A stretch of 64,000 nt of DNA from Nocardia sp. NBC_00565. Its GTDB lineage: Bacteria > Actinomycetota > Actinomycetes > Mycobacteriales > Mycobacteriaceae. The position numbers and the translations under genes were made by a program. A model generated the notes under the pieces. That model saw only the letters and a program-made list of their open reading frames with translations, had not been told where the DNA came from and ran no database searches. Shown here piece after piece: positions 31,665-52,289 of this stretch (its first letter is position 1; each line of letters begins with the position of its first letter). The stretch lies in assembly GCF_036345915.1 (NCBI RefSeq), contig NZ_CP107785.1, positions 2,790,001 to 2,854,000 on the forward strand. The letters are read 5' to 3'.

Positions 31665-34600
31665 TCACTCGAGTCGTTCGTTGAGAATCCGGGCGATCTG
31701 GGCGACCGCCGCAGGCTCGGTCATTGCCAGGTGCGTCGAATTGATGCAAAAGTTCGAAATCTGGCCGCGGACAAAGGGCACCCATCCCCGGTGACCGGCG
31801 GCCTCGGATCGCCTTTCGATTGTCGCGGTGAAGTACAGCAGGTCGCTGTCCAAGACCGGGGGCTGCCAGTCACCGACGGCCCGGATCGATAGGTTGTAGG
31901 TGTCGGTCAGGCGTTCGATCATTGCGGCGTCGATATCGACACTGTCTCCCAGGCGCCCTCCGATCAGCTCGGCGGCTTGTTCCGCTGTCGCGTCAGGACT
32001 CACGAAATCGATTCCCATGACCGGGCCGAGGTTGCTTATCAGCTCCCCTGGTGTGACCGAGCGGGTACTCGAAGCGTCGATACCGTCGGCTTCGGAGTCC
32101 AGCATCGCCAAGAGAGCGACCTGCTCACCGGCGGCGCGCATCTCGACGGCGACGGCATGCGCGATCAGCCCACCCAGCGACCAGCCGAGAAGGTGATAGG
32201 GGCCGTGTGGCTGGACCGTTCGGATCTCGTCGTAGTAGCGCTTGGCGATTTCTTCGATCGATATCGGACCGGGGTCTTCGCCGCCGATCTGCGGCGCCTG
32301 AATGCCGTATATCGGTTGACCGGCGGATATGTACTGGTCGAGTGTGTAATAGCACCATGCCAGTCCCGAAGCGGGATGGATACAGAACAGCGGTGGTCGC
32401 CGGCTGCCGGTCCGGATCGGTAGAAGTATGTCGAATCCGAGGGCGGTCCGGTCGGTGACGTCGTGACCGAAGCGCATGCCGAATTCGATCCGCTTCGCGA
32501 GGTCGGCGGGACTCGGGTCCGACAACATCCAGCGAACCGGAACCTCGTAGTCGAGTACTCTCTTCAACTCGCTCACCACCTGCACCGAACGCAGTGAGTT
32601 ACCGCCCAAGGCATAGAAGTCGTCGTCGGCTCCCACTCGCTCCACGCCGAGCACCTGTTCAAAGGCTCGGGCGACCTCCCCTTCGAGCCATGACGAGGGC
32701 TCCCTGAACTCTCCTACCGCGATCACGGGATCCGGCAGCCCCGTGCGGTCCAGCTTGCCCGACGCGGTGAGTGGCACAGTATCGAGTACCACCATCGTGG
32801 TGGGCATCATATATCCGGGCAGTTCGGTAGCCGCGTGTGCCAGAACCTCGCCGGTGTCGATCGTGGAACCGGCGGCGGGGACGAGGTAGCCGACGAGGCG
32901 CTCCACCGCACCGGCGGAGCGCACCACAGCGATCGCCCGGGCGATGCCGGGGTGCTCGGCGAGTACTGCCTCGATTTCACCGAGTTCGATGCGCAGGCCG
33001 CGCAGCTTCACCTGGAAATCGGTGCGGCCCAGGTATTCCAATTCGCCGGTCCGGCGCCAGCGCACCAAGTCGCCGGTGCGGTACAGGCGCCGTCCGTCAC
33101 CGTACGGGTCGGGCACGAACCGTTCCGCGGTGAGGCCCGGACGTGACTGATAGCCGCGCGCGAGCTGGGTGCCCGCCAAGTACAGCTCCCCGGCGACACC
33201 GGGCGGTACCGGATGTAACCGGTTGTCGAGTACGTATGCCCGCGCGTTCCATACCGGTGTGCCCATCGGCATGGTCCCGCTGTCGGCTTCGGTCACCCGA
33301 TGCGCGGTCGCACACACGGTGAACTCGGTTGGCCCGTACAGATTGTGCAACTCGACCCCGGGCACTATTCGCCGCACCGCGGCCACCACCTCGGGGCCGA
33401 ATGCCTCACCGCCCACCAGGAGCGTCCGCACCGATTCCAGCGACTCCGCAGGCGCCGCGTCCGCAAATACCGCCAGCATCGACGGCACGAGCGCGGTGAT
33501 CGTGACCCGCTGGGTGGCAATGGTTTCGGCGAGATAGGCCGGGTCGGTATGCCCGTCGGCTCGCGCGATCACCAGCCGCGCCCCCACCGCCAGTGTCGCA
33601 AACAGCTCCCACACCGACATGTCGAACGTGGCCGGGGACTTCTGCAGCACGACGTCATTCGGCGTCAGTGCGTAGGTCCCGCTGACCCACCGCACCTGGT
33701 TGACCACCGAACAATGCGATACCGCAACACCTTTCGGTCGCCCGGTCGACCCCGAAGTGAAGAGCACGTATGCGACGTTGTACGGTCGCAGCGGTGCGAG
33801 CCGATCGGCGTCGCTGACCGGCGCGTCATCGAATCCGGACAGCTCCAGCCCATCGAGGGATGACAGCTCCAGCACCGGTGCGGCGGTCGTCAGCATGTAC
33901 TCGATGCGTTCGGCCGGATAATCGGGATCGACCGGTATGTACCCACCGCCGGCGGCGTGCACCGCGTACATGGCGGTGACCTGGTCCAGTGAACGCCGCA
34001 TCCGCAGCGCCACCAACGACTCCGGACCCACTCCGCGGGAGATCAACCACCGCGCCAACCGGAATACGCGCGACGCGAACTCCGCATAGGTCAGCGACTG
34101 TTCACCGAATATCATCGCGGGCCGGTTCGCGTGCACTTGTGCCGAGGAGACGAACATCGACGCGAGTGTCTCGTTCGGAACGAGTGCGTGATCGGTCGAA
34201 TTCCACTGCACCAGAACGGCTTCCCGTTCGCCGGTGTCGAGCAGGTCCACGTCGCCGACCGGTTGCGCGGGGTCTGCCACCACCGCGTCGAGCAACCGCA
34301 GCAGGCGATCGACGATGGTGGTCACAGTCGCCGGGTCGAACAGGTCGGTCGCGTAGATCACCCCACCGGTGATGCCGGCCGGGGCGCCGGCGGTGTCGTA
34401 GGTATCCGATACCGTGACCTGCAGGTCGAACAGCGAAGTACCGGTATCGGCTTCCATGGCAGACACCGACAGCCCCGGCAACTCGAAGTCGGTCCTGGCG
34501 AGATTCTGGAACGCCAGCATCACTTGGAACAAGGGGTGGTGCGCTTGGGAGCGTACCGGGTTCAGCTCCTGCACCAGCCGTTCGAAGGGCACGTCCGCGT

Positions 34601-37600
34601 GCCCGAACGCGGCCAGATCGGTGCCCCGAACCTGCTCGAGCAACTGTGTGAACGACATTCCGGAAGTCAGACGGGTCCGCAATACGAGGGTGTTGACGAA
34701 CATGCCGACCAGATCGTCGAGTTCGGGCTCGCCACGGCCCGCGTAGGGAGTGCCGATCGCGATGTCGTCGGTACCGGTCAGGCGAGCCAGCGTGGCAGCC
34801 AATGCCGCGTGGAAGACCATGAACAGCGTCGTATTGTGCGATCGCGCGATCCGCAGCAGTCCCGCGTGGAGATCGGCGTCGACAGTCATCGGTATGCTCG
34901 CACCCGCATAGGACTGTGTCGGCGGACGCGGTCGGTCGGTCGGAAGTTCCAGCAACGCAGGCAGATCCGCCAGCTGCGTCGTCCAGTAGTCGATCTGCGC
35001 ACGCAGCAACGATTCGGGGTCGTGTTCGGTCCCCAGCACCGTTCGCTGCCAGATCGAGTAGTCCGCGTACTGCACCGGGAGCGGTGGCCAGGCCGGCGTC
35101 TCGTCCTGCAGCCGTGCCGCGTAGGCGATCATCATGTCCCGCGCGAGTGGGCCGAGCGACGACCCGTCGCCGCAGATGTGGTGCATCACAACGGCCAGAA
35201 CCCACTCGTCCGGCTCGAGCTCGAACAGGCGTGCCCGGAACGGCACCTCGACCGTCACATCGAACGCTGTCGATACGAGAGCCGACACCGACTCGGCCAG
35301 TTCGGGTTCCGCGAGCGGGGTCACGGCCATCGGCGGAATTGCCTGCGCGACGGGCAGAACGACCTGCGCCGGATCACCTGCCACTTGCGGGTACACGGTC
35401 CGCAGCACCTCGTGCCGGGTCACCACATCGCCGATCGCCGCGTGCAGCGCGTCGATATGCAGCTGTCCGGACAGACGTATCGCGATCGGGATGTTGTAGG
35501 CGGGCGAGTCGGGCTCGAACCGGTTCAGGAACCACATCCGCTGCTGCGCGTACGACAACGGGATATGGCGCGGGCGCGGCTGTGCGGTCAACGCCACGCG
35601 GCCGGTGTCGGCGTGGGATTCGGCGCGCGCGGCCAATCTTTCGACCGTCGGCGCCTCGAAGATCATCGCTACCGGGACGTTCGTGTCGAGCGCGGCGCCG
35701 ATCCGGGCGGCCGCCCGGATGGCTACCAGGCTGTTGCCACCCAGTTCGAAGAAGTCGTCGTCGGCGCCCACGGTGCCGTTGACGCCGAGCACCTCGGCGA
35801 ACACACCCGCCACGATCTCCTCTACCGGTGCAGCCGGGGCCCGGAATCGCTTGGTCTGGGCGACGGGTGCGGGCAGCGCCTTACGGTCGAGTTTTCCGCT
35901 CGGCGACAGAGGGATTTCGTCGAGGACCATCACGGCGGCGGGCACCATATACGACGGCAGCACCTCGGTCAGTGCCGCACGCAACTCCTCGGCCGACACG
36001 GTCGCCTCCGCAACCGGCGCCACGTAAGACACCAGCATCACAGGACCTGCACCCGCACGACGCGGCACTGTCACCGCGAACGCCACCTCCGCGCGCGCCC
36101 CCAACACCGCATCGATCTCCCCGAGTTCGACCCGGAAACCGCGGACCTTCACCTGAAAATCGTTACGTCCCATGAACTCCAAGGCGCCGACGGTATTCCA
36201 CCGCACCACATCGCCGGTGCGGTACACGCGGGATCCCGGTTCCCCGAACGGGTGTGCCACAAACCGCGCCGCGGACATGCCCGCCCTGTTCACGTACCCG
36301 CGCGCCAGCGCCGGGCCGGCCAGATACAACTCTCCGCTCACCCCTACCGGTACCGGCTGCAACCGGGTATCCAACACCAGAGCCTGAATTCCGGGCAGCG
36401 GAGCGCCGATCGTCGGCGGGTCGCCCGGTCGCAGCCGCTCGGTCGCAGTGGCGATTATCGTTGTCTCCGTCGGTCCGTACAACACTCGGAACTGCCTGGT
36501 CCCGCTGATATCGGTGCCCGCCCAACGGTTCACCAGGTCCGCCGGGACCTCGTCACCGCCGGACATCACGACCCGTAAGTCGTCCAGCCCTGCCGGATCC
36601 ACCGAAGCCAATGCGGCAGGGGTGACGAATGCGTGCGTGATCCGCTGCACGCGGAGGAGCTCAGCCAGCTCGTTTCCGCCGCGCATCCCCGCCTGCGCCA
36701 CCACCAGTGCGGACGCACGACTGACTGCCAGCAGGATCTCCAGCAGTGAGGCGTCGAATGAGGTCGACGCGAAATGTAGTACCCGGGACGTGGGCCCGAG
36801 GTCGTGGTCGGCGCGCTGCGCCGAGACGTATCCGATGACGCCGGAATGTGTGACGGCGACGCCCTTCGGCACTCCGGTGGATCCCGAGGTGAAGACTACC
36901 CAGGCCACATTCGAGGTCCGCAGCGGCCGCAGCCGCTCCCCATCACCGATCGTTCCTCCGGCCAGCGCATCGATCCGCGCTACCACGGTGGTGTCGTCGA
37001 GCACGATCCAGTCCACAGAATCGGGCAACGCGGCGCGCGCGGACGATACCGTCACCCCCAGTACCGCACCCGAATCCGACACCATCTGTTCGATCCGGCC
37101 TGCGGGATAGCTGGGATCCACCGGCACGTACGCCGCTCCCGATTTCGCCACCGCCCACCATGCGACTACGGACTCCACCGACCGCGGTGCCGCCATGACA
37201 ACCGCACACCCCGGTCCGGCCCCGAGGCGGATCAGGTGTCGCGCCAGCCGATTCGACCGTTCGTCGAGCTCCGTATACGACAACTCGGTATTCTCCGACA
37301 CCACGGCCACACCGTCGCCGTTGTCCCGGACGGCCGCGGTGAGCACCTCCGGCAACAGCACCGGTGACGCCGCGGCTTGCGAGCCCACCCGCGAAAGCAG
37401 CTCCACCCGCTCGTCCGCGTACAGCCAATCGATATCCCCGGTCGCCACCGCCGGATCCTCGGTGATCGCTTCCAGAACCCGCACCAATCGGCGGACGAAC
37501 CCCGTTACCGTCACCTCGTCGAAAAGATCACGCGCATACATCATCATTCCCGAGATACCGTGTGTCACACCGGCTTTCCCATACGAATCGGATATCACCA

Positions 37601-40600
37601 GTTGCAGGTCGAACTGGCTTGTCCCGGTATCCAGATCCGCCCGTGACACCGCGACATCGGGCAGCACGACCTCAACCGTCGGCATGTTCTGGAACGCGAG
37701 CGCGACCTGGAACAAGGGATGCTGCGCCGCTGATCGCTCCGGATGCAGTTCCTCCACGACACGCTCGAACGGTACATCCGCATGCTCGAACGCCTGCAGG
37801 TCCACCTCTCGAGTCCGCTTCAGTAGGTCCGCGAACGACTCGCTCCCATCAACTGGAGTTCGCAGTGCCAGTGTGTTCACGAACATCCCCACCAGATCAT
37901 CCAGACCTGGTTCGCCGCGACCCGCGACCGGGGTTCCTATCACCACGTCATCGCTGCCGCTCAACCGCGCGAGTACCACTGCCAATGCGGCATGCACCAC
38001 CATGAACAGCGACGCCCCCCGCGATCGGGCCAAGTCCAATAGCCGCCCGTGCAATTTCGGACCGATCTCGACCGGCACCCGTCCACCCGCCTGCGATGCC
38101 ACCGCCGGACGGGCGTGGTCCGTCGGCAGATCCAGCCGATCCGGCGCGTCGGCCAACGTCGACCGCCAGAACGCCAACTGCGCGGACATCAAGGAGGCCG
38201 CATCATCTGCCGCCCCGAGAACCTGCCGCTGCCACAATGCGAAATCCGCGTACTGCACTGCCAAGGGTTGCCATACCGGCGCATGTCCGGCCACCCGCGC
38301 CGCGTACGCCACCATCACATCACGGGCCAGCGGCCCCATGGACTGTCCATCACCGGCGATGTGATGGACAACCAACACCAACGTGAACTGCTCGATGCCA
38401 CCGTCGGCCTCCGGTTCGACCTTGAACAATCCCACGCGCATCGGCACCTGCGCGGTCACATCGAACCCGGCCCGCACGAATTCGCCGACCACATCGCGGA
38501 CCGAACTCGCCTGCACCCGCACCGGATCCACCGTGACCCCCGGCTCATCCAGAATCACCTGCCGTGGCTCGCCGTCGGTCTCCGGGTATATCGTCCGTAA
38601 CACCTCGTGGCGTCCGATGACGTCCCTGATCGCTGCCCCGAGAGCCGCGAAGTCCAATCGCCCGGACAACCGCAGCATCACCGGGATGTTGTATACGGCC
38701 GACTCCGGCTCGAACCGGTTCAGGAACCACATCCGTTGCTGGGCCAGTGAGAGGGGCACCGGATCGGGCCGCACCGCCGCTGTCAACGGCACTCGGCCCC
38801 CACCGCTGAGCGATCCCGCGAGCTCCGCGAAGCCCCCTACGGTGGGCGTCTCGAACAACGACCGCACCGGTATCCGTACATCCAAGGCGGCCCCCACCCG
38901 CGCCACCACCAGCGACGCACTCAGCGAATCACCACCCAGTGCGAAGAAGTCGTCATCGACCCCGACCCGGTCCACGTGGAGCACCTGCTCGAACGCCGTC
39001 GCGACGACTGCTTCCACCCACGACGACGGGGCCCTGAAAACCCGAGCAGCGAAAACGGGCTCCGGCAAGCGCTCGCGATCCAGTTTCCCGTTCGAGGTCA
39101 GCGGAACGTCGCCGAGCACCATCACCACGGCCGGCACCATGTACGCGGGCAGTACCTCGGTCAACGCCGCACGCAACTCCTCACCCGATACAGTCTTCCC
39201 CGCCGACGGCATCACATAGGACGCCAACGTCACCGGCCGCCGATCGTCGCCACGCGGCACGGTGACCGCGAATGCCACATCCGAACGCGCACCGAGCGCT
39301 GCGTCGATCTCACTCAACTCGACCCGAGCGCCGCGCACTTTCACCTGAAAATCGTTGCGCCCCAAGAACTCCAAATGCTCGTCCGGGTTCCGCCGCACCA
39401 TATCACCGGTGCGGTACATCCGGCGGCCCGGTTCCCCGAATGGACATGCGACGAACCGTGCCGCACTCAACCCCGCGTTGCCGATATACCCGTCGGCCAG
39501 ACCTGGGCCGAACAGATGGAGTTCGCCCGCGACGCCCAGCGGCACCGGCCGCAACCAGGTATCGAGGACCGCGGCTGCGACGGCGCCAACCGGCCTACCG
39601 ATCGTGATCGGAGCGCCGGGCCTGAGCGCGTCGGTTCCGGTAGCCCAGATAGTGCTTTCGGTCGGCCCGTAGAGGTTGACCATGGTGCGATCCGGCGCCC
39701 ACTGGTCGACCAGTTCCGGGCCGACCGGTTCTCCGGCCGTTGCCAGCACGCGCAGCTCGGCGAGGCCGTCCCGGGGGACTGTCGCCAGTGCCGATGGCGT
39801 CAGCACCGCGTGCGAGATATGTTCGCGCCGCATCAGATCCGCGAGCTCGCGGCCGCCGTACACATCTGGTGGTGATACGACCAGCCGTCCGCCCGAGCCG
39901 TGCGCCATCAACAGCTCGAATACCGAGGCGTCGAAGCTCGGCGAGGCGACCTGCAGTACGGTCGATGTGCGGTCGACGTCGAGTACCCGGCGCTGCGCCG
40001 AGACGACATCGGCCAGGCCACGATGACTGACCAGCACCCCCTTGGGTGTTCCCGTCGATCCGGACGTGTAGATCACATATGCTGTCCGATCTATCCGAAT
40101 CGGACCCCCACGTTCGGAATCGGTGATCGGCGCGGCAGAAACCGAGTCCATACCGCGGAGAGTCTGTTCGTCATCGATGATCAGCCAGTCGATGTCATCG
40201 GGCAGATTCGTGGAGCCGGTGACAGTCAGCCCTAGCGAGGCGTTCGAGTCCGACACCAGGAACTCGACACGCTCGGGCGGGAGGATCGGATCGATCGGCA
40301 CGAAGGCGGCGCCTGCTTTCGCGACAGCCCATATCGCGACAATCCCTTCCAGGGAGCGCGGGAGCGCGCAGGCGAGAACGGCCTGCGGCCGACCAGTGCG
40401 CCGAAGCACGATTCGAGCGAGCCGATTGGACCTCTCATCGAGCTGGCGGTAAGTCAGGGTGGCACCGCCATATGCCGCCGCGATCGCGTCGGGTCGGCGG
40501 GCAGCGGATGCCGTGAGTATCTCGTGCAACGCTCCCGGGCTGAACTGGTCATCTCTGGTAGGAGGCCACAAAGGACCAGGTTCGTCGTTCAGTGCGATCG

Positions 40601-43600
40601 CGCTCGGCCGACCGGCCGGATTCTCGGCGATCCAATAGACCAACTCGACAAACCGGTCGAGGATTTCACGCGCCCGAGCTGGGGCGAATTCGGGCTCGAG
40701 GAATCGGAGGGTGATCTGCAGTCCCTGCGCGCCGCCGGGCTCAGCCTCCTGAGGCGCGACGACGAGGCTCAGCGGATATGGGGTGGCGTCGATACCGGTG
40801 ATGTCTTCGACGTGCAGGCCCGCCGAATCGACCAGTTGCTGCAACGCTGGCCGGTCGAGGGGGAACGACTGGAAACCGAGTGCGGTGTCGAAGAGTTCGG
40901 ATACTCCGGCACTGCGGTGAATGTCGGGTAGACCGACGTAGTGGTGGTCCAGCATGCTGGCGTGCTGCGCCTGAATTCGGATCAGCAACTCCCGCACCGA
41001 TACCGCGGGTTCGAGCCGGACGCGGACGGGAATCGTATTCAGGAACATGCCGAGCGTTTGGTCCACCATCGGCAACTGCGGTGGCCGGCCGGACACCGCG
41101 GAGCCGAAGATCACCTCGGTCTCACCCGTCAGTATGCGCAGATTCAGTGCCCAAGCCGCAGCCAGGACGGTGTTGATGGTGACAGCTGCGTCCGCTGCCG
41201 CCGCACGCAGCTGTCCGAACCGATTCGCTGACAGCTCGACGCTGACCTCGGCGGCCGACGCGGAGTCTGCTGGGCCGGCTCCGCGGGCCACCCGGGTGGG
41301 TGAATCCACATCCGAATAGGCCTGCGCCCACGCGGCTTTGGATGCGGCGAGATCCTGTTGGCGCAGCCAGATCAGGTAGTCGCGGTAGGAGGGCGCAGGT
41401 CCGACGGCTTCGATACGTGACGGTGATCCGTAGTATTCGAGCAGGTCTCGCATCAGCAACGGCATCGACCAACCGTCGAGGATTACATGGTGATTCGTGA
41501 CGAGCAGCCGGAAAATGTTCGAATCGACATGGATCAGCGTGAATCGAATCAGCGGAGGAGCCGACAGGTCGAATCCTGCCGCCGCGTCCGCTGCCGCGAA
41601 AGCGCCTATGTCGGCGGGGAGTTCCGAATCGCCGATGTCGGCTAGATCAACCTCCCGGAACTGAACCTCGGCGTGGTTCAGCACGATCTGGCACGGTCCC
41701 GCGGCCGTTTCCGCAAATGCGGCACGCAGGATATCGTGCCGGTCCACTACCGCCTGAGCGGCACGCCGCAGGCGTTCGGCGTCGATCTCTCCGGAGAATC
41801 CGATCATCGTCTGAACGGTGTAATTGTCCGAGGTGTCCGGGTCGAACATCGAGTGGAAGTGGATCCCGGATTGCATCGGCGACAGTGGCCACACGTCGGA
41901 CAAGGCGTGATACTGCTTCTCGAGTCGCTCGATGTCCGATTGTGTGAGCGCGACCAGCGGGAAGTCCGACGGCCGATATGCGCGGCCCTCGGCCCGGACC
42001 CCCGCCTGGAGGCCGGATTGTTCCTCGATCGGCACGGGTGCCCGATCGCCGCGCGCTATTGCCGCGAGGGCGGCGACCGTCTTGCCTTCGAACACATTTC
42101 GGGGAGTGATGTCGAGCCCGGCGGATCTCGCCAATGCCACCAGCCGCATCGAGAGGATGCTGTCGCCGCCGAGGGTGAAGAAGTTGCTCTCCGCCGAGAC
42201 ATTGTCCAGATGCAGCACATCGGCGAAGAGTTGCGCCATGACCTGCTCCGCAGGCGTGGACGGCGGCCTGCCACCCACACTCTCCGATTCGAAGGCGCGC
42301 TCCCGCAGTGCATTCCGGTCGATCTTGCCCGTGCGGGTGAGCGGCATCGAGTCGAGTTCGATGATCGCGGTGGGATTCATGTAGTAGATCAGCGTGCTCG
42401 CGAGATCATCGTGCAGTGCCGGCACATCCAGAGCCACACCCGGGGCGGAAACCACATATGACACCAGAACCGGTTCGCCGGCGGGCCCTTCTTGCGCGAC
42501 GGTGGCGACGCTCGCCACAGCGGCATGCCGTGCCAGGTGGGCATCGATGTCCCCCAGCTCGATCCGCAGGCCGTGAATCTTGACCTGTTGATCGTTGCGT
42601 CCCAGGTAGTCCAACTCCAACCCTGTGCGACCCCGCACCCACCGTATGGAATCGCCGGTGCGGTAGATCCGCTGCCCGTGTCCGGACACTGGATCCGCGA
42701 CGAAGCGGGACGCGGTCGCGCCCGGTCGATCGAAGTAACCTCGGGCAAGTCCGGGCCCTCCGATATAGAGTTCGCCGGCCACCCCGACCGGCACCGGCCG
42801 CAGCCACATATCGAGAACCGCCACCGACACACCACGGATCGGGCTCCCCATCGATACCGGTTCGCCGGGCCGCAAGACATCTGAGCCTGTTGCCCAGATC
42901 GTGCATTCAGTCGGTCCGTAATGATTCATCAGCCGACGCCCGTGCCCCCACCGGTTCATGGTGTCCGATCCGGTCGCTTCGCCCACGACTGCGACCGATT
43001 CGAGGGAGCGAAGCCCGGACGGATCCATCGTGTTGAGTACGGAGGGGGTGATGATCGCATGCGAAACCTTCTCCGTCCGCAGCAAATCCGCGAGATCGCT
43101 TCCGGCGTACACCTGTGGCGGTGCTACCACGAGGCAGGCGCCGCTACTGTGTGCCAGCAGCAACTCCGACAAGCACGCGTCGAACCCCGGCGAGGCGACC
43201 TGCAACACCACCGAATCGGCATCCGCACCGAAGGCTTCGGCTTGCGCGGCGACGAGGTCGGCCAAACCTCGATGACTGAGCTGAACCGCTTTCGGTTTGC
43301 CGGTCGATCCGGACGTATAGATCACATACGCCGTATGGTCTGGCAGCAGCCTGCCTGCCACAGCGGGGGTGCTGGCCGAGCGAGACAGATCTTCCTCGGC
43401 GTCGGGGACCAACCAGTCGACTGTGTCCGGAAGGCGCGGTGCGCCGGCGCTGGTCGTCACGCCCAGCCCGCAGCGGCAGTCGGACAGCAACTCCGCGAGC
43501 CGCTCGGAGGGATTATCCGGATCCAGCGGGACGAAGGCGGCGCCTGTCCTTGCTACCGCCCAGATCGCCACGACCAGTTCGACAGAACGAGGAATGGCCA

Positions 43601-46600
43601 ATGCGACGAACGACTCGGGGCGAGCGCCGCGGCCGATCAGCAGCTCGGCGAGCTCGTCCGCGCGACGGGCGAGCTCACGATAGGTCAATGCGGTGTCACC
43701 GCAGCGGACAGCCGCCGCGTCCGGATACCGGCACGCGGTTTTCCACAGGATCTCGCGGAGCGTGAGCTCCTCGACCGGTGACTCGCTTCGGGCCGAAAGT
43801 AGTTCGGTGCGTTCGGAATCCCAGCACGACGAGATCGCGGCGGTCTTCTTTGCGGGATCGGTCACGATCTGCGTGAGGATCGATTCGAATCGTTCGAGCA
43901 GCGTGCGGGCATCCTCCGAACCGAGCCGGTCGGTGGAGAATCTCAACGTCACCGTGAATGCGTCCGGCTCGCTGGTATCGGATCGCCCGTCGCGAATCGG
44001 CCGCGGTGGGGTCACTTGCAGACTCAGCGGGTATGGCGTGGCGTCGTGTGCTCGGAGATCGACGAGCCGCAAACCGGCGTCACCGAGAGTGCGTGCCAGC
44101 CCATCCCGATCCAGCGGGTAGGACTCGAGCACTGTCACTGTATCGAACATATCGGCGAGCCCGGTCGCCCGTTGCAACTCCGCCAGGCCGATGTGCCGGT
44201 GATCCAGCATTGCGACTTGCTCGGCTTGCACCCGAACGAGTAGATCGGCGACAGTCTCGTTGGGGTCGAGCCGGATTCGTACGGGCACAGTGTTGATGAA
44301 CAGGCCGACCATCTGCTCCACACCCGGGATCTGCGGTGGTCGGTCCGACACCGTGTTGCCGAACACCACGTCCGACCGGCCGGTCGGGACCGTGAGCAGC
44401 AATGCCCACGCCACCTGCATGGACGTATTGGCGGTGACGCCATGGGAGCGGGAGAGACCGATAACCGCAGCGGTGGTCGCGACGTCGAGGTTCAGGCCGA
44501 CTTCGCCGTTGTGCGCGGTGACAGTTCGATCCGGCTCGCCCATGACCCGCGTCGGACTCTCGATTCCGGCGAGCGTCTGACGCCACGCGGTTATTGCGGC
44601 GTCACGATCTCGAGTGTGCAGCCACTGTAGGTAGTCCCGGTAGGACCGAGGGGGCGCGAGCGCGGCCGTATCGCCCTCGGATATGTACAGCGAGAGCAAC
44701 TCGCCGATCAGCAAGGGCATCGACCAGCCGTCCAGCACGATGTGGTGGTTGGTGACCAGCAGCTGGAACTCATCGGCGCCGATACGGACGAGGTGGAAAC
44801 GCACCAGCGGCGGACGAGCCGGATCGAACGGCTCCGAGGCTGCCGCGGCGAGTCGCTGGAGTTCGCGCTCGCGAGCACCGGCATCGCGGATATCGGTGAT
44901 ATCCGATTGACGCCAATCGACCTGGGTGTCGCTCAGCACGATCTGGTGTGGCCCGTCGGTGCTCTCGACAAAAGCGGTCCGGAGGCTGTCGTGCCGGCCG
45001 ATCAGCGCCTGCGCAGCCTGCCGCATCCGTTCGGCATGAACCTTGCCGGCAAGCGTCAGCGCGGCCTGGACGATATAGCCGTCGACGCCGTCATCGTCGT
45101 AGATGGCGTGGAACAGCAGTCCGGACTGCAACGCAGTGAGTGGCCACACATCGGTCATCGACGGGTATTCCCGCAACCAGCGGTCGATTTCGTGCTGCGA
45201 TGCCACCACGAGCGGGAAGTCCGAGGCAGTGAATCCGCCAGCGGTTTCGGATCGGACGTGTCGGGCAAGCGCCCGCAACGCCTGCGCCCACAGCCCGGCG
45301 AGCTCGTCGACATCTGCGGTGCCCAGCACCTGAGCGGCGAAATCCCATGTCGCGTCCAGTTCGATCCCGTCGGAGCGCTGTTCGGCGATCACATTGAGAT
45401 CGAGCACGGCCGGCAGTGCCATCCGCGGGTCGCTCGTCGCGGTCAGTGCGGTGAATTCCGTCGTCGGGGTCCATGCCCCCGAGTGTTCGCGGGCACTCAC
45501 CCTCCCCAAATAGTTGACGCTGATCTGAGGTTCTCGCGAACTCCCGAGCTCGGCGCGACCCACGGGATCGAGCCGGCGCAGCATTCCGTAGCCGATACCG
45601 TTGTCCGGCACCGCTCGTCGCTGCTCCTTCACCTGCTTGATCGCGAGTCCCGCGGCTGCGCCACCGGCGAACGCCTCATCGAGATCAACGCCTCGCAGTT
45701 GGATGAAGACCGGGAACCGTGTAGTGAACCAGCCCACGGTGGCGTCGAGTTCGGCTCCCGGCACAGCGTGTTCCTCGCGGCCATGCCCCTCCAGCGAGAT
45801 CACCTGTCCGTCGGCCACCATGCCGCGCCTTCGCCGCCACAGTCCCAGTGCCAGTACCAGCGCCGCCAGCAACGGGTCATTGGCACTTCCGTGAAAGCGA
45901 GCCGGAATGGTCGTGAGAATCGCCTCTGCAACATCTGCCGGGATACGCGTCCGGATCCGGTCCCCGGTCGCCGTGACGTCACGATCGGGATCCAAATGCC
46001 GCGACCCGAGTAGCTGATCTTCCTGCTCGAGAACGTTTTTCCACAGGTCGAGTTCCGTCGAACGCCTGCCCGCCGCCTGCTCGACCAGACCGTGAACCCA
46101 GCGCCGGACCGAGGTCGTGCCCGAGCCGAAGTGCGGGTCATGGCCATCGCAGACGTACTGCCAGGCCTGCGCGAGGTCGCTGAGGATGATCCGCCACGAC
46201 ACAGCGTCGACAGCGAGGTGATGAACGACAAGCCACATCAGATCAGGGCCCGCGCCCGCGTCATCTTCCATCCAGACGAATTGAACGAGAACACCGTTGC
46301 TCGGGTCCAATCGATCGGCGGCTGCTTGCAGATGCCAGTCGACTTCTGCGGCATCGCGCCGTTCGAGCCGAACCCGGACGAGGGCCGCGTCGGCATCGAC
46401 CGCTGCCGGATCGGGTACATCGAGGTACTGATCAACCGACTCGGCGCCGCACAACACCGCGCGCAACATATCGTGGCGGTCCAGCAGCGATTGCAGTGCG
46501 CGCACGAGCCGCACTCGATCGACCCGCTGCGGAAGTTCAACGAGAGCGGCTTGCGCAAACCGATCGAAGTGTCCTCGCTCGAGCATCGCGTGCGTGATCG

Positions 46601-49600
46601 GCGACAGCGGCATCGACCCCACGCCGCGGCCGGGCAACTCGACAAGCTGGGGCTTGTCGCCGGCCTGCGTCGCTGTGGCGGCCAAACCCGCGACGGTCTT
46701 GCGCTCGAACACATCCTGCGTGGAAAAAGCCAAGCCAGCGGCCTTGGCCCGCGCCACCAGCTGAATCGACAGAATGCTGTCGCCGCCGAGAGCGAAGAAG
46801 CTGTCGTCCGCTCCGACCTGCCGCACTCCGAGCACCTCGACGAACAGCCCTGCTACCAGGCTTTCCCGGGGTGTGGCCGGCGGACGACCGACCGGTGCGG
46901 TCCCGAAAGCAGGGGCAGGCAGAGCGCTGCGATCGAGCTTGCCGAACGAATTCACCGGCAGGCTGTCCAGCAGCACGACCACCGCCGGGACCATATGGGG
47001 CGGCAGGGACTCGCCGGCGAAGCGCTCGAGTTCGAGCGGATCGATCCGACGACCGCGAACGGGGACGACGTAGGACGCGAGAACGGTCGCGCCGGCGTTG
47101 TTGCGCACCGGCATCGTGACGGAAAGATCTACATCATCGTGTCCGGTGAGCGCGGCGTCTATCTCGCCGGGCTCGATCCGGTACCCGCGAATCTTGATCT
47201 GAAAGTCGCTGCGCCCCAACAACTCCAGCCGCATACTGGAATCTCCGCTCGCCCAGCGCGCGATATCGCCGGTCCGATAGATCCGCGCACCCGGACCGCC
47301 GTAGGGATCGGCGACGAACCGGGCTGCGGTCTCCCCGAATAGATGACTGTAGCCTCGCGCCAAACCCGGTCCGGCCAGATACAACTCACCCGGGGTCCCC
47401 TTGGGCACCGGTTGCAGTGCGGAATCGAGAACCATGGCCGATACACCACGTATGGGGCCGCCGACGGTGCGACCACCCTCGGGACTCATCGCGACGCCCG
47501 CGGCGGTCACAGTGGTTTCGGTGGGCCCGTATTCGTTGTACACGGACCCTGTACGCATCCACCGCTCGATCACGTGCGGTGGACACACGTCACCACCGAC
47601 CACGACCACGCGCAACTCGGTCAGCTGGTCCGGGTCGACGGTCGCCAGCATCGCGGGCGTCAGCGTCAGGTGGGTCACACCCTCGTCAGCGAGTAGTCGG
47701 GTGAGCGGCTCACCGCCGATCACATCGGGAGGGGTGATCACCAGCGTGGATCCATTTGCGAAGCAGGTCAGGAACTGTTCCATGGAGGCGTCGAAACTCG
47801 GCGACAGTGCGTAGGACACGCGGGCGGTCGTGTCGACACCGTAGGCTTCGCTGCGGTCGGCGATGAGGTTCGCAAGTCCGGTATGTGTGACCTGGACGCC
47901 TTTCGGCCGTCCGGTGGATCCCGACGTGTAAGTCACATACGCGAGGTTGGACGCTCGCAGCGGCCGGATCCGCTCATCGTCGGCAATCGGCCCGTCGGCT
48001 GCGGCATCGCATTCCCGCAGGGCCGCGGCATCATCGAGAACCACTCGGCGCACTTGCCTCGGAAACCGCCCACCATAGGCGCTGATGGTGATTCCCACTC
48101 GCGCGCCACTGTCAGCGATCACGTGCTCGATACGCTTGGGCGGGTACTCCGGGTCCACTTGCACAATCGCGGCCCCGCATTTCGCTACCGCCCACGCCGC
48201 GATGATCGACTCGACCGAGCGTCTGAGCACGATCGCTACCGCCGTGTCCGGACCGCACGCCAGAGCTATCAGCTGGCGGGCCAATTGGGAGGATCTGGTG
48301 TCCAGCTCGCCATATGTCAAGGTCCGGCCGGCCGAGGCGATCGCGCTCGCACTACGGTAGCGATGTGCGCTGTCTGCCAGGATGTCGGGTAGCAGCTGTG
48401 TTCCGGCGCTGCTCGGTCCCCGCACGGGCACCAGCGCGGATCGTTCCTGTGCCTCGAGTAGCGGCAGACTGCTGACCGGGCGTGCCGTTCCCCCGGCGAG
48501 GAACTCGTGCACGAACATGAGGAACCGCTTGTGGTGACCAGCGAGTTCTTCGGGGCTGTAGACATTCGGATTCCCCTGGAAGTCGATATGAGTACTGCTC
48601 TTACCCGCTCCCGGGTAGATATTGACAAACAGGTCGGCGGTAGGCCCTGACGTCAAGACGTTCAGGCGTCCTGTCGTATCACCGAGCACGACTTCGTTCT
48701 CGATCATCATGAGGTTCACGGCAGGTCCGAAGGACGCGGCCTCATCGCGCGCGATCCCCATATCGCGGAATATGTCCTCCTGGCGGTAGCGCTGTCGCCG
48801 AAGGGCACTCGTCAACTCACTTTGAGTGGCAGCGATCAGCTCACCAACGCTGCGGAAGGCGACCCGCACTCGCAGCGGAACCACATTCGCTACCATCCCC
48901 CCCGAACGTCGCAGCACGGCGGAGTGCCGACCCGAAACCGGCAGGCTCAGAAGCACTTCATCGCTTCGGGTCATCCGGGCGAGATAGGCCGCGAACGCCG
49001 CGACGATGATCGGAGCTACGCTGGTGCCGCGCTCGCGCACGACGTTGTCCAGCAGACGCGCGGTCTCGTCCGGCAAGGGCGCGCTGACAAGCGCCGGATG
49101 AATGGTGGGCTTGCTCACTCGACCGGCCAGACTGACGACGGGCGGCGCGCCGGCCAGGTGCTCGGTCCAGTATTTGCGGTCGTTGTCGAAACGCGCCGAA
49201 CCTCGGTACGCCAGATCCTGATCGATGATGTCTGCGAGGCTGTTCGCCGTCGATGGCGGGGCCTGTTCGAAATTGACCCAAGCGTTGTACAACTCGGTTA
49301 TCCGGTGCAGCATTGTCACCGCGGCGTATCCATCCAGCGCGATATGGTGGGCCCGCAGATACCACAGGAAGTGATCCGATCCGACCTGGAACACAACACT
49401 TTTCATTAGGAAGTCGTTCAGCAAGTCCAGCGGGGCGGAATAGTCCTCAGCCATCAGCCGGTGGGCAGTCGCAACAGGGTCGGCATACCGGCGCAAGTCC
49501 ATGACCGATACCGGAGAGCCGTCCGCTTCATCGATGAACTGGCATGGTTCGCCGTCGATTTCGATCAGGCGCACATGTCCGGATCCGAACTCGCGACTGG

Positions 49601-49892
49601 CGGTATTGCACGCCTTGACGAGCAATTCGGGTTTCAATTCACCAACGATCTCGACATACTGGGCCACAGATATCGGTGACGTGCCGGCGAGATGCTGGGC
49701 GAACCATATACCCCGCTGCGCCGCAGACAGCCGAAGAACGTCGAAGGGTGGCGAACCTGCGAACTCCTTACCGTTGTGGGGAGTGCCGGAACCACTACCG
49801 GAAACCTGATGCCCGGGAAACGTGGATGAACCGATCTGCGATGAAATCGACCACTTCGAATCGCTGCCAGAGTCACGCTGGGGTTGGGGCAC
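31665..49892 (-). CDS. Five-module nonribosomal peptide synthetase with thioesterase
   Basis: This 6075-residue NRPS is predicted to make and release a five-residue peptide. Approximate domains are: module 1, C 48-470 (HHIALDG at 182), A 500-1000, T (GGDSILS at 1035), E 1085-1530 (HHLAVDAVSW at 1222); module 2, C 1560-1980 (NHHIVLDGWS at 1713), A 2040-2520, T (GGDSILS at 2573); module 3, C 2645-3080 (NHHVILDGWS at 2798), A 3120-3605, T (GGDSLSAS at 3652); module 4, C 3705-4130 (HHIAGDGQS at 3842), A 4180-4670, T (GGNSLVA at 4717); module 5, C 4775-5190 (HHICGDGSS at 4902), A 5240-5715, T (GGNSLRS at 5761); TE from 5820 (GWSLGG at 5902). All C, E, T and TE motifs look intact and every A domain has the TSGSTG loop and GKLDR/GKIDR lysine. 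The leading C domain has no upstream partner, so it probably N-acylates residue 1. Eight-position A-pocket readings (by eye): A1 DAETVGEVTK, A2 DASIAVHIWK, A3 DAFVAALIWK, A4 DALFMGLIIK, A5 DMWALGLVCK; none is an obvious textbook code. The start is GTG with GGAGG close upstream. C2 and C3 are both of the type that follows E domains, but module 2 has no E (see findings). Confidence 0.95.
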   Translation of the reverse strand: MPQPQRDSGSDSKWSISSQIGSSTFPGHQVSGSGSGTPHNGKEFAGSPPFDVLRLSAAQRGIWFAQHLAGTSPISVAQYVEIVGELKPELLVKACNTASREFGSGHVRLIEIDGEPCQFIDEADGSPVSVMDLRRYADPVATAHRLMAEDYSAPLDLLNDFLMKSVVFQVGSDHFLWYLRAHHIALDGYAAVTMLHRITELYNAWVNFEQAPPSTANSLADIIDQDLAYRGSARFDNDRKYWTEHLAGAPPVVSLAGRVSKPTIHPALVSAPLPDETARLLDNVVRERGTSVAPIIVAAFAAYLARMTRSDEVLLSLPVSGRHSAVLRRSGGMVANVVPLRVRVAFRSVGELIAATQSELTSALRRQRYRQEDIFRDMGIARDEAASFGPAVNLMMIENEVVLGDTTGRLNVLTSGPTADLFVNIYPGAGKSSTHIDFQGNPNVYSPEELAGHHKRFLMFVHEFLAGGTARPVSSLPLLEAQERSALVPVRGPSSAGTQLLPDILADSAHRYRSASAIASAGRTLTYGELDTRSSQLARQLIALACGPDTAVAIVLRRSVESIIAAWAVAKCGAAIVQVDPEYPPKRIEHVIADSGARVGITISAYGGRFPRQVRRVVLDDAAALRECDAAADGPIADDERIRPLRASNLAYVTYTSGSTGRPKGVQVTHTGLANLIADRSEAYGVDTTARVSYALSPSFDASMEQFLTCFANGSTLVITPPDVIGGEPLTRLLADEGVTHLTLTPAMLATVDPDQLTELRVVVVGGDVCPPHVIERWMRTGSVYNEYGPTETTVTAAGVAMSPEGGRTVGGPIRGVSAMVLDSALQPVPKGTPGELYLAGPGLARGYSHLFGETAARFVADPYGGPGARIYRTGDIARWASGDSSMRLELLGRSDFQIKIRGYRIEPGEIDAALTGHDDVDLSVTMPVRNNAGATVLASYVVPVRGRRIDPLELERFAGESLPPHMVPAVVVLLDSLPVNSFGKLDRSALPAPAFGTAPVGRPPATPRESLVAGLFVEVLGVRQVGADDSFFALGGDSILSIQLVARAKAAGLAFSTQDVFERKTVAGLAATATQAGDKPQLVELPGRGVGSMPLSPITHAMLERGHFDRFAQAALVELPQRVDRVRLVRALQSLLDRHDMLRAVLCGAESVDQYLDVPDPAAVDADAALVRVRLERRDAAEVDWHLQAAADRLDPSNGVLVQFVWMEDDAGAGPDLMWLVVHHLAVDAVSWRIILSDLAQAWQYVCDGHDPHFGSGTTSVRRWVHGLVEQAAGRRSTELDLWKNVLEQEDQLLGSRHLDPDRDVTATGDRIRTRIPADVAEAILTTIPARFHGSANDPLLAALVLALGLWRRRRGMVADGQVISLEGHGREEHAVPGAELDATVGWFTTRFPVFIQLRGVDLDEAFAGGAAAGLAIKQVKEQRRAVPDNGIGYGMLRRLDPVGRAELGSSREPQISVNYLGRVSAREHSGAWTPTTEFTALTATSDPRMALPAVLDLNVIAEQRSDGIELDATWDFAAQVLGTADVDELAGLWAQALRALARHVRSETAGGFTASDFPLVVASQHEIDRWLREYPSMTDVWPLTALQSGLLFHAIYDDDGVDGYIVQAALTLAGKVHAERMRQAAQALIGRHDSLRTAFVESTDGPHQIVLSDTQVDWRQSDITDIRDAGARERELQRLAAAASEPFDPARPPLVRFHLVRIGADEFQLLVTNHHIVLDGWSMPLLIGELLSLYISEGDTAALAPPRSYRDYLQWLHTRDRDAAITAWRQTLAGIESPTRVMGEPDRTVTAHNGEVGLNLDVATTAAVIGLSRSHGVTANTSMQVAWALLLTVPTGRSDVVFGNTVSDRPPQIPGVEQMVGLFINTVPVRIRLDPNETVADLLVRVQAEQVAMLDHRHIGLAELQRATGLADMFDTVTVLESYPLDRDGLARTLGDAGLRLVDLRAHDATPYPLSLQVTPPRPIRDGRSDTSEPDAFTVTLRFSTDRLGSEDARTLLERFESILTQIVTDPAKKTAAISSCWDSERTELLSARSESPVEELTLREILWKTACRYPDAAAVRCGDTALTYRELARRADELAELLIGRGARPESFVALAIPRSVELVVAIWAVARTGAAFVPLDPDNPSERLAELLSDCRCGLGVTTSAGAPRLPDTVDWLVPDAEEDLSRSASTPAVAGRLLPDHTAYVIYTSGSTGKPKAVQLSHRGLADLVAAQAEAFGADADSVVLQVASPGFDACLSELLLAHSSGACLVVAPPQVYAGSDLADLLRTEKVSHAIITPSVLNTMDPSGLRSLESVAVVGEATGSDTMNRWGHGRRLMNHYGPTECTIWATGSDVLRPGEPVSMGSPIRGVSVAVLDMWLRPVPVGVAGELYIGGPGLARGYFDRPGATASRFVADPVSGHGQRIYRTGDSIRWVRGRTGLELDYLGRNDQQVKIHGLRIELGDIDAHLARHAAVASVATVAQEGPAGEPVLVSYVVSAPGVALDVPALHDDLASTLIYYMNPTAIIELDSMPLTRTGKIDRNALRERAFESESVGGRPPSTPAEQVMAQLFADVLHLDNVSAESNFFTLGGDSILSMRLVALARSAGLDITPRNVFEGKTVAALAAIARGDRAPVPIEEQSGLQAGVRAEGRAYRPSDFPLVALTQSDIERLEKQYHALSDVWPLSPMQSGIHFHSMFDPDTSDNYTVQTMIGFSGEIDAERLRRAAQAVVDRHDILRAAFAETAAGPCQIVLNHAEVQFREVDLADIGDSELPADIGAFAAADAAAGFDLSAPPLIRFTLIHVDSNIFRLLVTNHHVILDGWSMPLLMRDLLEYYGSPSRIEAVGPAPSYRDYLIWLRQQDLAASKAAWAQAYSDVDSPTRVARGAGPADSASAAEVSVELSANRFGQLRAAAADAAVTINTVLAAAWALNLRILTGETEVIFGSAVSGRPPQLPMVDQTLGMFLNTIPVRVRLEPAVSVRELLIRIQAQHASMLDHHYVGLPDIHRSAGVSELFDTALGFQSFPLDRPALQQLVDSAGLHVEDITGIDATPYPLSLVVAPQEAEPGGAQGLQITLRFLEPEFAPARAREILDRFVELVYWIAENPAGRPSAIALNDEPGPLWPPTRDDQFSPGALHEILTASAARRPDAIAAAYGGATLTYRQLDERSNRLARIVLRRTGRPQAVLACALPRSLEGIVAIWAVAKAGAAFVPIDPILPPERVEFLVSDSNASLGLTVTGSTNLPDDIDWLIIDDEQTLRGMDSVSAAPITDSERGGPIRIDRTAYVIYTSGSTGTPKGVLVSHRGLADVVSAQRRVLDVDRTSTVLQVASPSFDASVFELLMAHGSGGRLVVSPPDVYGGRELADLMRREHISHAVLTPSALATVPRDGLAELRVLATAGEPVGPELVDQWAPDRTMVNLYGPTESTIWATGTDALRPGAPITIGRPVGAVAAAVLDTWLRPVPLGVAGELHLFGPGLADGYIGNAGLSAARFVACPFGEPGRRMYRTGDMVRRNPDEHLEFLGRNDFQVKVRGARVELSEIDAALGARSDVAFAVTVPRGDDRRPVTLASYVMPSAGKTVSGEELRAALTEVLPAYMVPAVVMVLGDVPLTSNGKLDRERLPEPVFAARVFRAPSSWVEAVVATAFEQVLHVDRVGVDDDFFALGGDSLSASLVVARVGAALDVRIPVRSLFETPTVGGFAELAGSLSGGGRVPLTAAVRPDPVPLSLAQQRMWFLNRFEPESAVYNIPVMLRLSGRLDFAALGAAIRDVIGRHEVLRTIYPETDGEPRQVILDEPGVTVDPVRVQASSVRDVVGEFVRAGFDVTAQVPMRVGLFKVEPEADGGIEQFTLVLVVHHIAGDGQSMGPLARDVMVAYAARVAGHAPVWQPLAVQYADFALWQRQVLGAADDAASLMSAQLAFWRSTLADAPDRLDLPTDHARPAVASQAGGRVPVEIGPKLHGRLLDLARSRGASLFMVVHAALAVVLARLSGSDDVVIGTPVAGRGEPGLDDLVGMFVNTLALRTPVDGSESFADLLKRTREVDLQAFEHADVPFERVVEELHPERSAAQHPLFQVALAFQNMPTVEVVLPDVAVSRADLDTGTSQFDLQLVISDSYGKAGVTHGISGMMMYARDLFDEVTVTGFVRRLVRVLEAITEDPAVATGDIDWLYADERVELLSRVGSQAAASPVLLPEVLTAAVRDNGDGVAVVSENTELSYTELDERSNRLARHLIRLGAGPGCAVVMAAPRSVESVVAWWAVAKSGAAYVPVDPSYPAGRIEQMVSDSGAVLGVTVSSARAALPDSVDWIVLDDTTVVARIDALAGGTIGDGERLRPLRTSNVAWVVFTSGSTGVPKGVAVTHSGVIGYVSAQRADHDLGPTSRVLHFASTSFDASLLEILLAVSRASALVVAQAGMRGGNELAELLRVQRITHAFVTPAALASVDPAGLDDLRVVMSGGDEVPADLVNRWAGTDISGTRQFRVLYGPTETTIIATATERLRPGDPPTIGAPLPGIQALVLDTRLQPVPVGVSGELYLAGPALARGYVNRAGMSAARFVAHPFGEPGSRVYRTGDVVRWNTVGALEFMGRNDFQVKVRGFRVELGEIDAVLGARAEVAFAVTVPRRAGAGPVMLVSYVAPVAEATVSAEELRAALTEVLPSYMVPAAVMVLDEIPLSPSGKLDRKALPAPVAQTKRFRAPAAPVEEIVAGVFAEVLGVNGTVGADDDFFELGGNSLVAIRAAARIGAALDTNVPVAMIFEAPTVERLAARAESHADTGRVALTAQPRPRHIPLSYAQQRMWFLNRFEPDSPAYNIPIAIRLSGQLHIDALHAAIGDVVTRHEVLRTVYPQVAGDPAQVVLPVAQAIPPMAVTPLAEPELAESVSALVSTAFDVTVEVPFRARLFELEPDEWVLAVVMHHICGDGSSLGPLARDMMIAYAARLQDETPAWPPLPVQYADYSIWQRTVLGTEHDPESLLRAQIDYWTTQLADLPALLELPTDRPRPPTQSYAGASIPMTVDADLHAGLLRIARSHNTTLFMVFHAALAATLARLTGTDDIAIGTPYAGRGEPELDDLVGMFVNTLVLRTRLTSGMSFTQLLEQVRGTDLAAFGHADVPFERLVQELNPVRSQAHHPLFQVMLAFQNLARTDFELPGLSVSAMEADTGTSLFDLQVTVSDTYDTAGAPAGITGGVIYATDLFDPATVTTIVDRLLRLLDAVVADPAQPVGDVDLLDTGEREAVLVQWNSTDHALVPNETLASMFVSSAQVHANRPAMIFGEQSLTYAEFASRVFRLARWLISRGVGPESLVALRMRRSLDQVTAMYAVHAAGGGYIPVDPDYPAERIEYMLTTAAPVLELSSLDGLELSGFDDAPVSDADRLAPLRPYNVAYVLFTSGSTGRPKGVAVSHCSVVNQVRWVSGTYALTPNDVVLQKSPATFDMSVWELFATLAVGARLVIARADGHTDPAYLAETIATQRVTITALVPSMLAVFADAAPAESLESVRTLLVGGEAFGPEVVAAVRRIVPGVELHNLYGPTEFTVCATAHRVTEADSGTMPMGTPVWNARAYVLDNRLHPVPPGVAGELYLAGTQLARGYQSRPGLTAERFVPDPYGDGRRLYRTGDLVRWRRTGELEYLGRTDFQVKLRGLRIELGEIEAVLAEHPGIARAIAVVRSAGAVERLVGYLVPAAGSTIDTGEVLAHAATELPGYMMPTTMVVLDTVPLTASGKLDRTGLPDPVIAVGEFREPSSWLEGEVARAFEQVLGVERVGADDDFYALGGNSLRSVQVVSELKRVLDYEVPVRWMLSDPSPADLAKRIEFGMRFGHDVTDRTALGFDILLPIRTGSRRPPLFCIHPASGLAWCYYTLDQYISAGQPIYGIQAPQIGGEDPGPISIEEIAKRYYDEIRTVQPHGPYHLLGWSLGGLIAHAVAVEMRAAGEQVALLAMLDSEADGIDASSTRSVTPGELISNLGPVMGIDFVSPDATAEQAAELIGGRLGDSVDIDAAMIERLTDTYNLSIRAVGDWQPPVLDSDLLYFTATIERRSEAAGHRGWVPFVRGQISNFCINSTHLAMTEPAAVAQIARILNERLE

Positions 49893-50961
49893 CTGACCTC
49901 CAGGGAATGCGTCGATTTCAGAAGCCGACCAATGTCACTAGGCCGCTCCTGCGCGGGGTCGGCACATCGCTCAGCGATGTGTACCAGATTCCAGCCGAAT
50001 GGCGCCGAATGCCGTTCAGGCGAGCAATGTGTATCGCCATGAAGACAGCACGACTCACGGCGCGCATGACACTCACAGCGGAGCAACCAGGCCTGATGGG
50101 GATGGAGGCCCTGTGAGCGACTGCCCGCAATCTCCGGTCACGAGGGGACCGTCGCAAAGTATCGATTCGAGTGTCTAAGACGAATTCGGCGTTTTCGGAC
50201 TCGGTGTTCGGCCGACGTTGCGCGGACGAGGAGTCCGAAACAACCAAATCGGTTCGGCCCGGAGTCGGGTTCGGCGAGCAGGAAGCGATTATCGTTTGGG
50301 TTCATCGGTTGCACCACACAGCCGTGTGAGACGTTTACGTCCTCGTCGTACGAGTTCGTTTATTAGCCGCAATGTCGACAATTAAGAGAGTTACTTCTTG
50401 CCGACTTGCCGCCGCGGCAACCCCGATCAGCAGTCGTCGAAACGCATTCGCGATGTCGACGACCAGTTTGAGAGAGTAAGCATAACGAGGAGGAACGCGG
50501 TCCGCAACGGTCTTCGAGCGTCTACATACTGCAGAGGTGGCGACATCGCGACACCTGATCCGATACTTTACCCTCGACACAGAGCGTAGGTATGATTCGG
50601 CCCGGTCATAATCGAAACCGCCGACGGGCGAACCGTTCCTTGGTAAAATAAGCACCCGCGCCAACGAGGATTGTAACGCGCCGCGACAAGGTCGGCACAC
50701 GACCAGAAATAGGCCGCCCAGGATAGGCCAAAAGGACCGTACCTCGCGTCGCGGAGCGGACCAGAATTCTCGGTCGGCATGTCCTATACGGCTACCCCGA
50801 GACATCGACAGTCAACCCTGCAACCCGCCAGCCCCGCGCGATACCGAATCGACAACGCAGATTTGCCGAATTCGCGTTCGCCCACAAGCGTCGCTGCCCA
50901 TCCACGCGTCGGTCAGCTCCGAATCAGATCGGTAGGCCTCTACCCAGGAATGAGGTAGCCC
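49893..50961. other. 1.07-kb intergenic region upstream of the large NRPS, low GC, no gene seen
   Basis: No frame here has convincing coding character. The stretch from about 50290 to 50720 is markedly poorer in G+C than the rest of the window (for example 50341-50400) and is crowded with AATT/TTA words. A promoter for the NRPS gene must lie here. A short minus-strand match to an L,D-transpeptidase active-site motif is present at about 50290-50335. Confidence 0.5.
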
Positions 50962-51807: not shown

Positions 51808-51891
51808 GCGTGAGCGGCAGGGTGCGCGTCGACGGTACCCACGCGGCCGTGTAGCGAGTTTCCCCGGTCGTGCGCCTGCACAAAAGAGGGC

Positions 51892-51907
51892 GCTGGGTTT
51901 CCCCAGC
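51892..51907 (+). terminator. Possible terminator after the secreted-protein gene
   Basis: GCTGGG (51892-51897) pairs with CCCAGC (51902-51907) around a 4-base loop, extended weakly by flanking GAG/CTC. It lies 85 bases after the stop codon. There is no clear T-run, so the call is tentative. Confidence 0.3.
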
Positions 51908-51911
51908 TCTC

Positions 51912-51934
51912 GTTAGCGCAAATAGTGAGCTAAC
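51912..51934. promoter_or_regulatory. Inverted repeat GTTAGC-N11-GCTAAC, candidate operator
   Basis: Perfect 6-bp arms at 51912-51917 and 51929-51934 flank an AT-rich 11-base spacer. It sits in the 1.1-kb gap before the second NRPS gene, about 1 kb from its start. A regulator binding site is plausible, but nothing ties it to a specific protein. Confidence 0.3.
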
Positions 51935-52289
51935 CGACGTCAATCACTACATCCAGGAAGACACATCCGACACGATCAGTCGACGCTTCGAGTGATCACC
52001 GGCGTGTTGACGATCGGGAGTGCGTCCGGCGCGTCGCGGAAACGCACGGACAACCGTGCCGCACGAGGAACTGCCCGCCCCGAGTTTGTCGAGGGCACCG
52101 AATCACATCGCCCAGGACCGCGCGTGTCGTACCGCGTTCGCCGCGGGCCCGCCACGCCCGGTGAGTGCGCCTTTGCGTACCCGTGGAGTGCGCCGACCAG
52201 CGCCTTGGAGTTATCGTTGAAGTTCCCACTGGAGGCCGAGATCGAGAGGCACATAAGGCGCCCCTCGACCAAGGCCTCGGGTACACGAC

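Follow-up and report, generated by a model that had tools for sequence, protein, structure and literature searches.

The window, meaning the whole 64,000-nucleotide stretch of Nocardia sp. NBC_00565 DNA that was analysed, carries two divergent synthetase genes, NRPS1 and NRPS2, whose features are collected in Table 1. Placement of domains with profiles made from the organism's own genome gives NRPS1 the order C-A-T-E-C-A-T-C-A-T-C-A-T-C-A-T, and its C-terminal part reads as thioesterase-like, PF00975 being precomputed on its record (P0003). The E1 motif of module 1 is EGHGR in 94 of the 95 proteins compared among the matches listed and EAHGR in the other, and NRPS2 also retains an E domain ahead of its D-donor-type C domain. 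Of the families sought by Pfam scan in 30 flanking ORFs, neither a racemase nor an E or MbtH family was found, and the three MbtH matches in the genome all lie outside the window. None of the ORFs tried in the stretch of about 3 kb between the two genes (window 49893-52942) has a Pfam match. For the first module of NRPS2 (window 53000-56062) the EntF and MxcG models give matches that fall short of their cut-offs, and in the tree its C1 groups with C1 of NRPS1, which is a hint of an acyl starter, aryl-type or other. The 9.71-Mb single-contig genome contains 112 condensation-type matches. At five loci within it (G000:C1 3338896-3340926, 3333385-3335559, 4600199-4602280, 5556082-5558157 and 8625199-8627220) a C match is followed by only the C-terminal half of another C domain (profile positions about 187-456) before the A domain, and these are possibly recombination remnants.

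Table 1. Features of NRPS1 and NRPS2, with positions in the window.
Feature	Positions	Strand	Remarks
NRPS1	31665..49892	-	6,075 aa; from translation and domain order
E1, epimerization domain kept by module 1	45252..46562	-	motifs HHxxxD and EGHGR
C2, post-E (D-donor type) condensation domain	43806..45149	-	same sub-clade as C3
A2 adenylation domain	42732..43739	-	pocket code DASIAVHIW
T2 carrier domain	42060..42239	-	pre-E motif LGGDSI
T2-C3 linker, without E domain	41895..42059	-	55 residues; E-C type motif PSDFPLVALTQSDIERL at 41972-41922
C3 condensation domain, post-E lineage	40584..41894	-	HHVILDG active site at 41492-41472
Gly2676 of C3	41865..41867	-	D-donor-type; Arg in LCL domains
Leu2951 of C3, first residue of the pair	41040..41042	-	Ile in most post-E domains
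Gln3008 of C3	40869..40871	-	Glu in 65/70 post-E, Gln in 52/82 LCL
Phe3010 of C3, second residue of the pair	40863..40865	-	Tyr in most post-E domains
NRPS2	52943..61471	+	2842 aa, C-A-T-E-C-A-T; divergent to NRPS1; from domain order and tree

The joint between T2 and C3

In module 2 of NRPS1 the profiles place no E domain between T2 and C3, the one passing straight to the other, which confirms the T-C junction without E of the preliminary description. The GGDSILS motif of T2 is found at residue 2575 and the SPMQSG of the next C domain, followed by IHFH, at residue 2671. Module 2 thus has 96 residues from T motif to C motif. Module 1 has 550, and modules 3 and 4, which precede LCL domains, have 62 each. 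The distances given earlier for modules 2 and 1 (225 and 678) were each about 129 too large, but the difference between them stands (453, with 454 found here).

Both flanks of the joint are of the kind that goes with an E domain. The sequence LGGDSI is present in 137 of 140 T domains that precede E, while all 231 T domains before LCL domains have the SL ending; T2 reads LGGDSI in 102 of 103 rows among the matches listed, the exception (P0106) being a misassigned non-orthologue, and so has the pre-E form that had been ascribed to it. Within the linker, PSDFPLVALTQSDIERL bears out the likeness to an E-to-C linker that had also been noted. A DFxL/V motif marks 285 of 342 E-C linkers from non-orthologues and none of 101 T-LCL linkers. 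In the window's protein and its orthologues among the matches listed, DFxL is present in 100/102 E1-C2 linkers and 0/201 LCL linkers, and DFPL is retained in 33/102 T2-C3 linkers. Since C3 is of post-E lineage (see below), T2 is of pre-E type and DFPL persists in a third of the orthologues, an E domain most likely once stood between T2 and C3.

The lineage of C3 was assessed in the C-domain phylogeny that the preliminary description had proposed as a check. The first tree comprised 112 rows, with the C domains of the organism's own genome labelled by the preceding domain and with one match below the family cut-off and 15 non-E pieces of fewer than 400 residues omitted. Here C3 and six orthologues lie inside the post-E clade (SH-aLRT 99 and 100) and do not group with LCL domains, the placement that had been named as an objection. 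The same clade includes the E-less row 8639563 with its relatives, and 8737217, while row 627394, labelled post-E, falls outside it; this row is preceded by a C fragment, not by E, and was excluded from later counts. Another tree, built on 142 rows of other species, again has C3 as post-E and puts 11 further post-T rows in the D clade. The support of the post-E clade for C3 is 98-100 (SH-aLRT) over the trees, so that C3 belongs, as first thought, to the class of C domains that stand behind E.

The residues of C3 tell the same story of descent. A comparison of 82 LCL with 70 post-E domains gave 45 diagnostic columns; eight post-T rows of the genome (C3 itself, four atypical rows and three of the D clade) were left out of the LCL set. 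At these columns the window's C3 carries 32 D-donor residues and 2 LCL residues. A reversal of C3 to the LCL class was accordingly rejected, on this score of 2/45 and on the grouping with post-E domains. Gly2676, a small residue at the position of the Arg gate, is found in all 95 C3 domains among the matches listed. A gating Arg of LCL domains is described in a section of PMC8097023, and the Gly2676 column, matched by motif, is probably the published gate column. C3 thus shares with canonical DCL domains (C2 of NRPS1, C2 of NRPS2, PvdL and bacitracin synthase 3) its lineage, the small gate residue, most diagnostic residues and HHxxxDG, but differs from them in having no E domain immediately upstream and in departing at 2951, 3008 and 3010. 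PvdL and bacitracin synthase 3 are also the closest solved relatives by sequence; both chains have a second stretch, E-like, before the matched C domain, and the PvdL structure titles read E2-C3. A model of C3 (pLDDT 81.6, from 21 sequences) matches the C fold and has Leu2951 (model position 292) where the C5 strand begins and Phe3010 (model position 351) just past FEN/FES. Counting from the active-site His, residue 3010 would lie near the equivalent of VibH Asn335, which is listed as catalytic in a portion of PMC1894796.

The preliminary description supposed a clean deletion of E, but a recent cut is not supported. The search for orthologues covered 60 genomes, 36 of them (its own included) from the same genus. 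An orthologue is present in 16 of the 35 other genomes of the genus, with 62-74% identity over the joint, and all 16 of the loci fetched lack E at the joint; at 1e-100, none of the 24 genomes of other families gave a match. A protein search passed 779 records, and the best 120 of the 779 comprise the window's own record, 101 others at 56% identity or more and 18 at 43% or less. The 101 orthologues among the matches listed come from Nocardia and Gordonia, 94 of them with the full 16-domain order and the others shorter. These were first chosen by domain order, which could hide proteins that keep E, but choice by identity returned the same 101, and in none of these does E follow module 2. A recent deletion is rejected on this ground, the loss being common to Nocardia and Gordonia. 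In 95 proteins among the matches listed the mean identity is 0.703 for C3 and 0.705 for C2, so that the two are equally conserved. Because no orthologue among the matches listed has E and C3 is as conserved as C2, the loss appears, from these alignments, to be old and maintained rather than damage. It had also been allowed that all relatives might lack E and have a different linker: the relatives among the matches listed do all lack E, but their linker is of the same origin.

The Leu2951/Phe3010 pair

Parts of Rausch et al. 2007 (PMC1894796) describe the C domains of modules 4 and 7 (M4 and M7) of glycopeptide synthetases (vancomycin/teicoplanin family) as being of DCL descent yet taking L donors, the product being D-D-L-D-D-L-L, and state that the positions behind this D-to-L donor shift could not be found. 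The glycopeptide set used here was drawn from the best 120 of 1442 and the best 120 of 4190 homologues, and the matches listed gave 66 proteins with M4-6 and 42 M7 rows, one protein probably being present twice; the M7 rows include the glycopeptide synthetase of Nonomuraea gerenzanensis (L060). From architecture and names (CepB, StaC, KerC), all M4 and M7 rows are presumably glycopeptide synthetases of that stereochemistry.

At 15 columns C3 has another residue than the one that post-E domains conserve, and these columns include those of Leu2951 and Phe3010, which occur together in 94 of 95 C3 domains among the matches listed, with one gap. The same pair is present, again among the matches listed, in 65/66 M4 and 39/42 M7 domains and in none of the 66 M5 or 66 M6 domains, which have D donors. 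It is found in 3/390 post-E domains, 0/143 LCL rows and 0/13 Dual rows; the first C domains of proteins, which have no donor label, contain it in 15/63, 0/40 and 1/8 cases, and Phe3010 alone occurs in 5/70 and 11/87 post-E rows. A further instance is a Nocardia A-T-C family, for which four of seven further matches were fetched and in which the pair is present in 5/5 rows (8639563 of the window's own genome with L047-L050). At the locus concerned (G000:C1 8637733-8640882, L010) and in its relatives a pre-E-type T domain is followed by a post-E-clade C domain with the pair.

When 417 columns were ranked as markers of M4 and M7, 3010 came second and 2951 third. At thresholds of 0.8 and 0.85 these are the only derived residues common to C3, the A-T-C family, M4 and M7, and at 0.9 only 3010 is; C2, as a control, has no derived column in common with M4 and one with M7. 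With columns taken as independent, the overlap of C3 at 0.85 has p values of 0.026 with M4 and 0.30 with M7, and that with the A-T-C family 0.14. The overlap of columns alone is weak because 34 of the 417 columns set C3 apart from post-E domains; the striking part is that the shared residues have separate origins. A tree built on 167 chosen rows has well-supported branches that force four separate origins of the pair. The fourth of these is a small clade (P0111, P0116 and P0122) with one E-less domain and three post-E domains that have the pair, and in these three the E domain upstream reads ERHGR, not EGHGR. E domains with ERHGR (in P0111, P0116, P0122, P0141 and P0171) also precede four domains without the pair.

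The likeness of C3 to the M4 and M7 domains thus extends to a D-donor lineage, the loss of E upstream and the pair itself, and the E-less T domains of M6 keep LGGDS (65/66 among the matches listed) as T2 keeps its pre-E type. Unlike these, however, C3 lies outside the glycopeptide clade, and it has Gln2694 (92/95) where M4 has His (65/66, both among the matches listed). It also has an LCL-like Gln3008 (94/95 with one gap, among the matches listed), which is not needed for the switch because Glu is kept at this position in 42/42 M7 and 54/66 M4 domains among the matches listed. A passage in a review (PMC11546977) mentions a Glu-to-Leu change in work of Peng et al. 2024, at a Glu that may be the one of position 3008. 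The A-T-C family resembles C3 in its E-less T domain before a post-E-clade C domain and in the pair, but forms a separate branch, belongs to module 1 of its protein and has Glu (3/5) or Ala (2/5) at 3008. C3 is therefore a case of a known kind, that of the glycopeptides, in another lineage and in cis within one protein.

The pair is not a universal mark of E loss. Among E-less D-clade joints it is present in 1/9 of the set labelled TD, 0/28 of TD5 and 0/1 of TD2; E-less joints of a T domain with a D-clade C domain without it were seen in P0118/P0121, P0111, P0115, P0072/P0106 and L052. Because so many E-less joints are without the pair it is not tied to the absence of E, so that its likeliest meaning, to judge from these distributions, is donor chirality. 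As far as searches show, the pair is a new lead, absent from the open-licence literature searched. A more general proposal, tentative and less likely than not, is that the change of Ile to Leu before the C5 Asn-Thr, together with that of Tyr to Phe after FEN/FES, forms a recurrent two-residue route from D to L donors once E is lost or spoiled, a route that may have arisen at least four times, C3 included, and that could convert model D-donor domains.

Origin of the joint and handedness of residue 2

The explanation that best accounts for the joint, and which is probably correct, is that E was lost in ancient times and that C3, of D-donor lineage, was retuned to an L donor. Module 2 would ancestrally have been C-A-T-E. 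Its E domain would have been lost by deletion, not by a recombination that bypassed it, before NRPS1 split into its Nocardia and Gordonia forms; T2, a D-donor-type C3 and some of the E-C linker would have stayed behind. The retuning would have gone through Ile2951Leu and Tyr3010Phe, with Glu3008Gln and others, as in the glycopeptide M4 and M7 domains after their loss of E, and the pair would itself be the cause of the switch. A2 would then load an L-amino acid, T2 would present the residue unflipped, making residue 2 L, and C3 would condense the L-ended chain with residue 3. The earlier suggestion that an L residue meets a C domain that has kept its D-donor shape fits poorly with the Leu/Phe pair of L-donor glycopeptide domains in C3, even if the 32 of 45 D-donor-diagnostic residues that C3 keeps, with 2 of the LCL kind, form a counterpoint to its retuning.

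Recombination is common in NRPS genes, and there may have been no deletion of E at all, a C2-like C domain and its linker having instead been set beside a T-C module, with C3 working on whatever T2 carries. Such an event is in keeping with the placing of C3 in one sub-clade with the C2 of NRPS1 itself and the C domain of NRPS2 type, and with the absence of DFPL from 69 of the 102 T2-C3 linkers among the matches listed. It is nonetheless rather unlikely, as T2 is of pre-E type in all 102 proteins (P0106 dropped; among the matches listed), and an exchange of the C domain by itself would not account for this unless T type goes with C. Alternatively, and as the preliminary description allowed, the second module could have lost its need for E through its substrate. 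If A2 loaded an achiral residue, E would be useless and the donor chirality of C3 irrelevant, the loss of E would be harmless and easy, and the A2 code is an unusual one. DASIAVHIW, nearly fixed among the matches listed (82/95), however, differs from the usual glycine code, and C3 would need no retuning, yet the convergent pair is there; this account is improbable.

The remaining alternatives keep the second residue D. In one, a racemase supplies the D-amino acid that A2 loads, or an E domain works in trans, and C3 has remained a D-donor domain. The retention of Gly2676 and of most D-donor residues in C3 speaks for this; direct loading of D-Ala is known for cyclosporin, according to a passage in PMC8949500. 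With no racemase or E family in the 30 flanking ORFs by Pfam, and with C3 having the pair typical of glycopeptide L-donor domains, this seems unlikely. In the other, C3 has gone unrecognised as a Dual E/C domain and would epimerize the residue on T2 before condensing it. C3 does resemble Dual domains in being of the D clade, with a T domain directly upstream and a long linker, and its T-C spacing of 96 is long, like that which part of PMC10212144 gives for Dual joints. C3 was rejected as a Dual domain, and the idea is highly improbable, since HHxxxxxGD, the second His motif near the N-terminus by which the 13 Dual references were selected, is present in 0/102 C3 domains among the matches listed, and the five references in the 167-row tree form another clade. 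Moreover, all 13 references read IRN where C3 reads LQF, and the T domains of Dual joints have LGGHSI (PMC10212144, in the same part) where T2 has LGGDSI.

The E-less joint, together with the pair in C3, suggests how such enzymes switch handedness. It is also unsafe to infer a D residue from a DCL-like C domain downstream of it. Since the same two changes turn up in an independent lineage, the question left by Rausch et al. 2007 is narrowed to two residues, which can be tested in a model enzyme.
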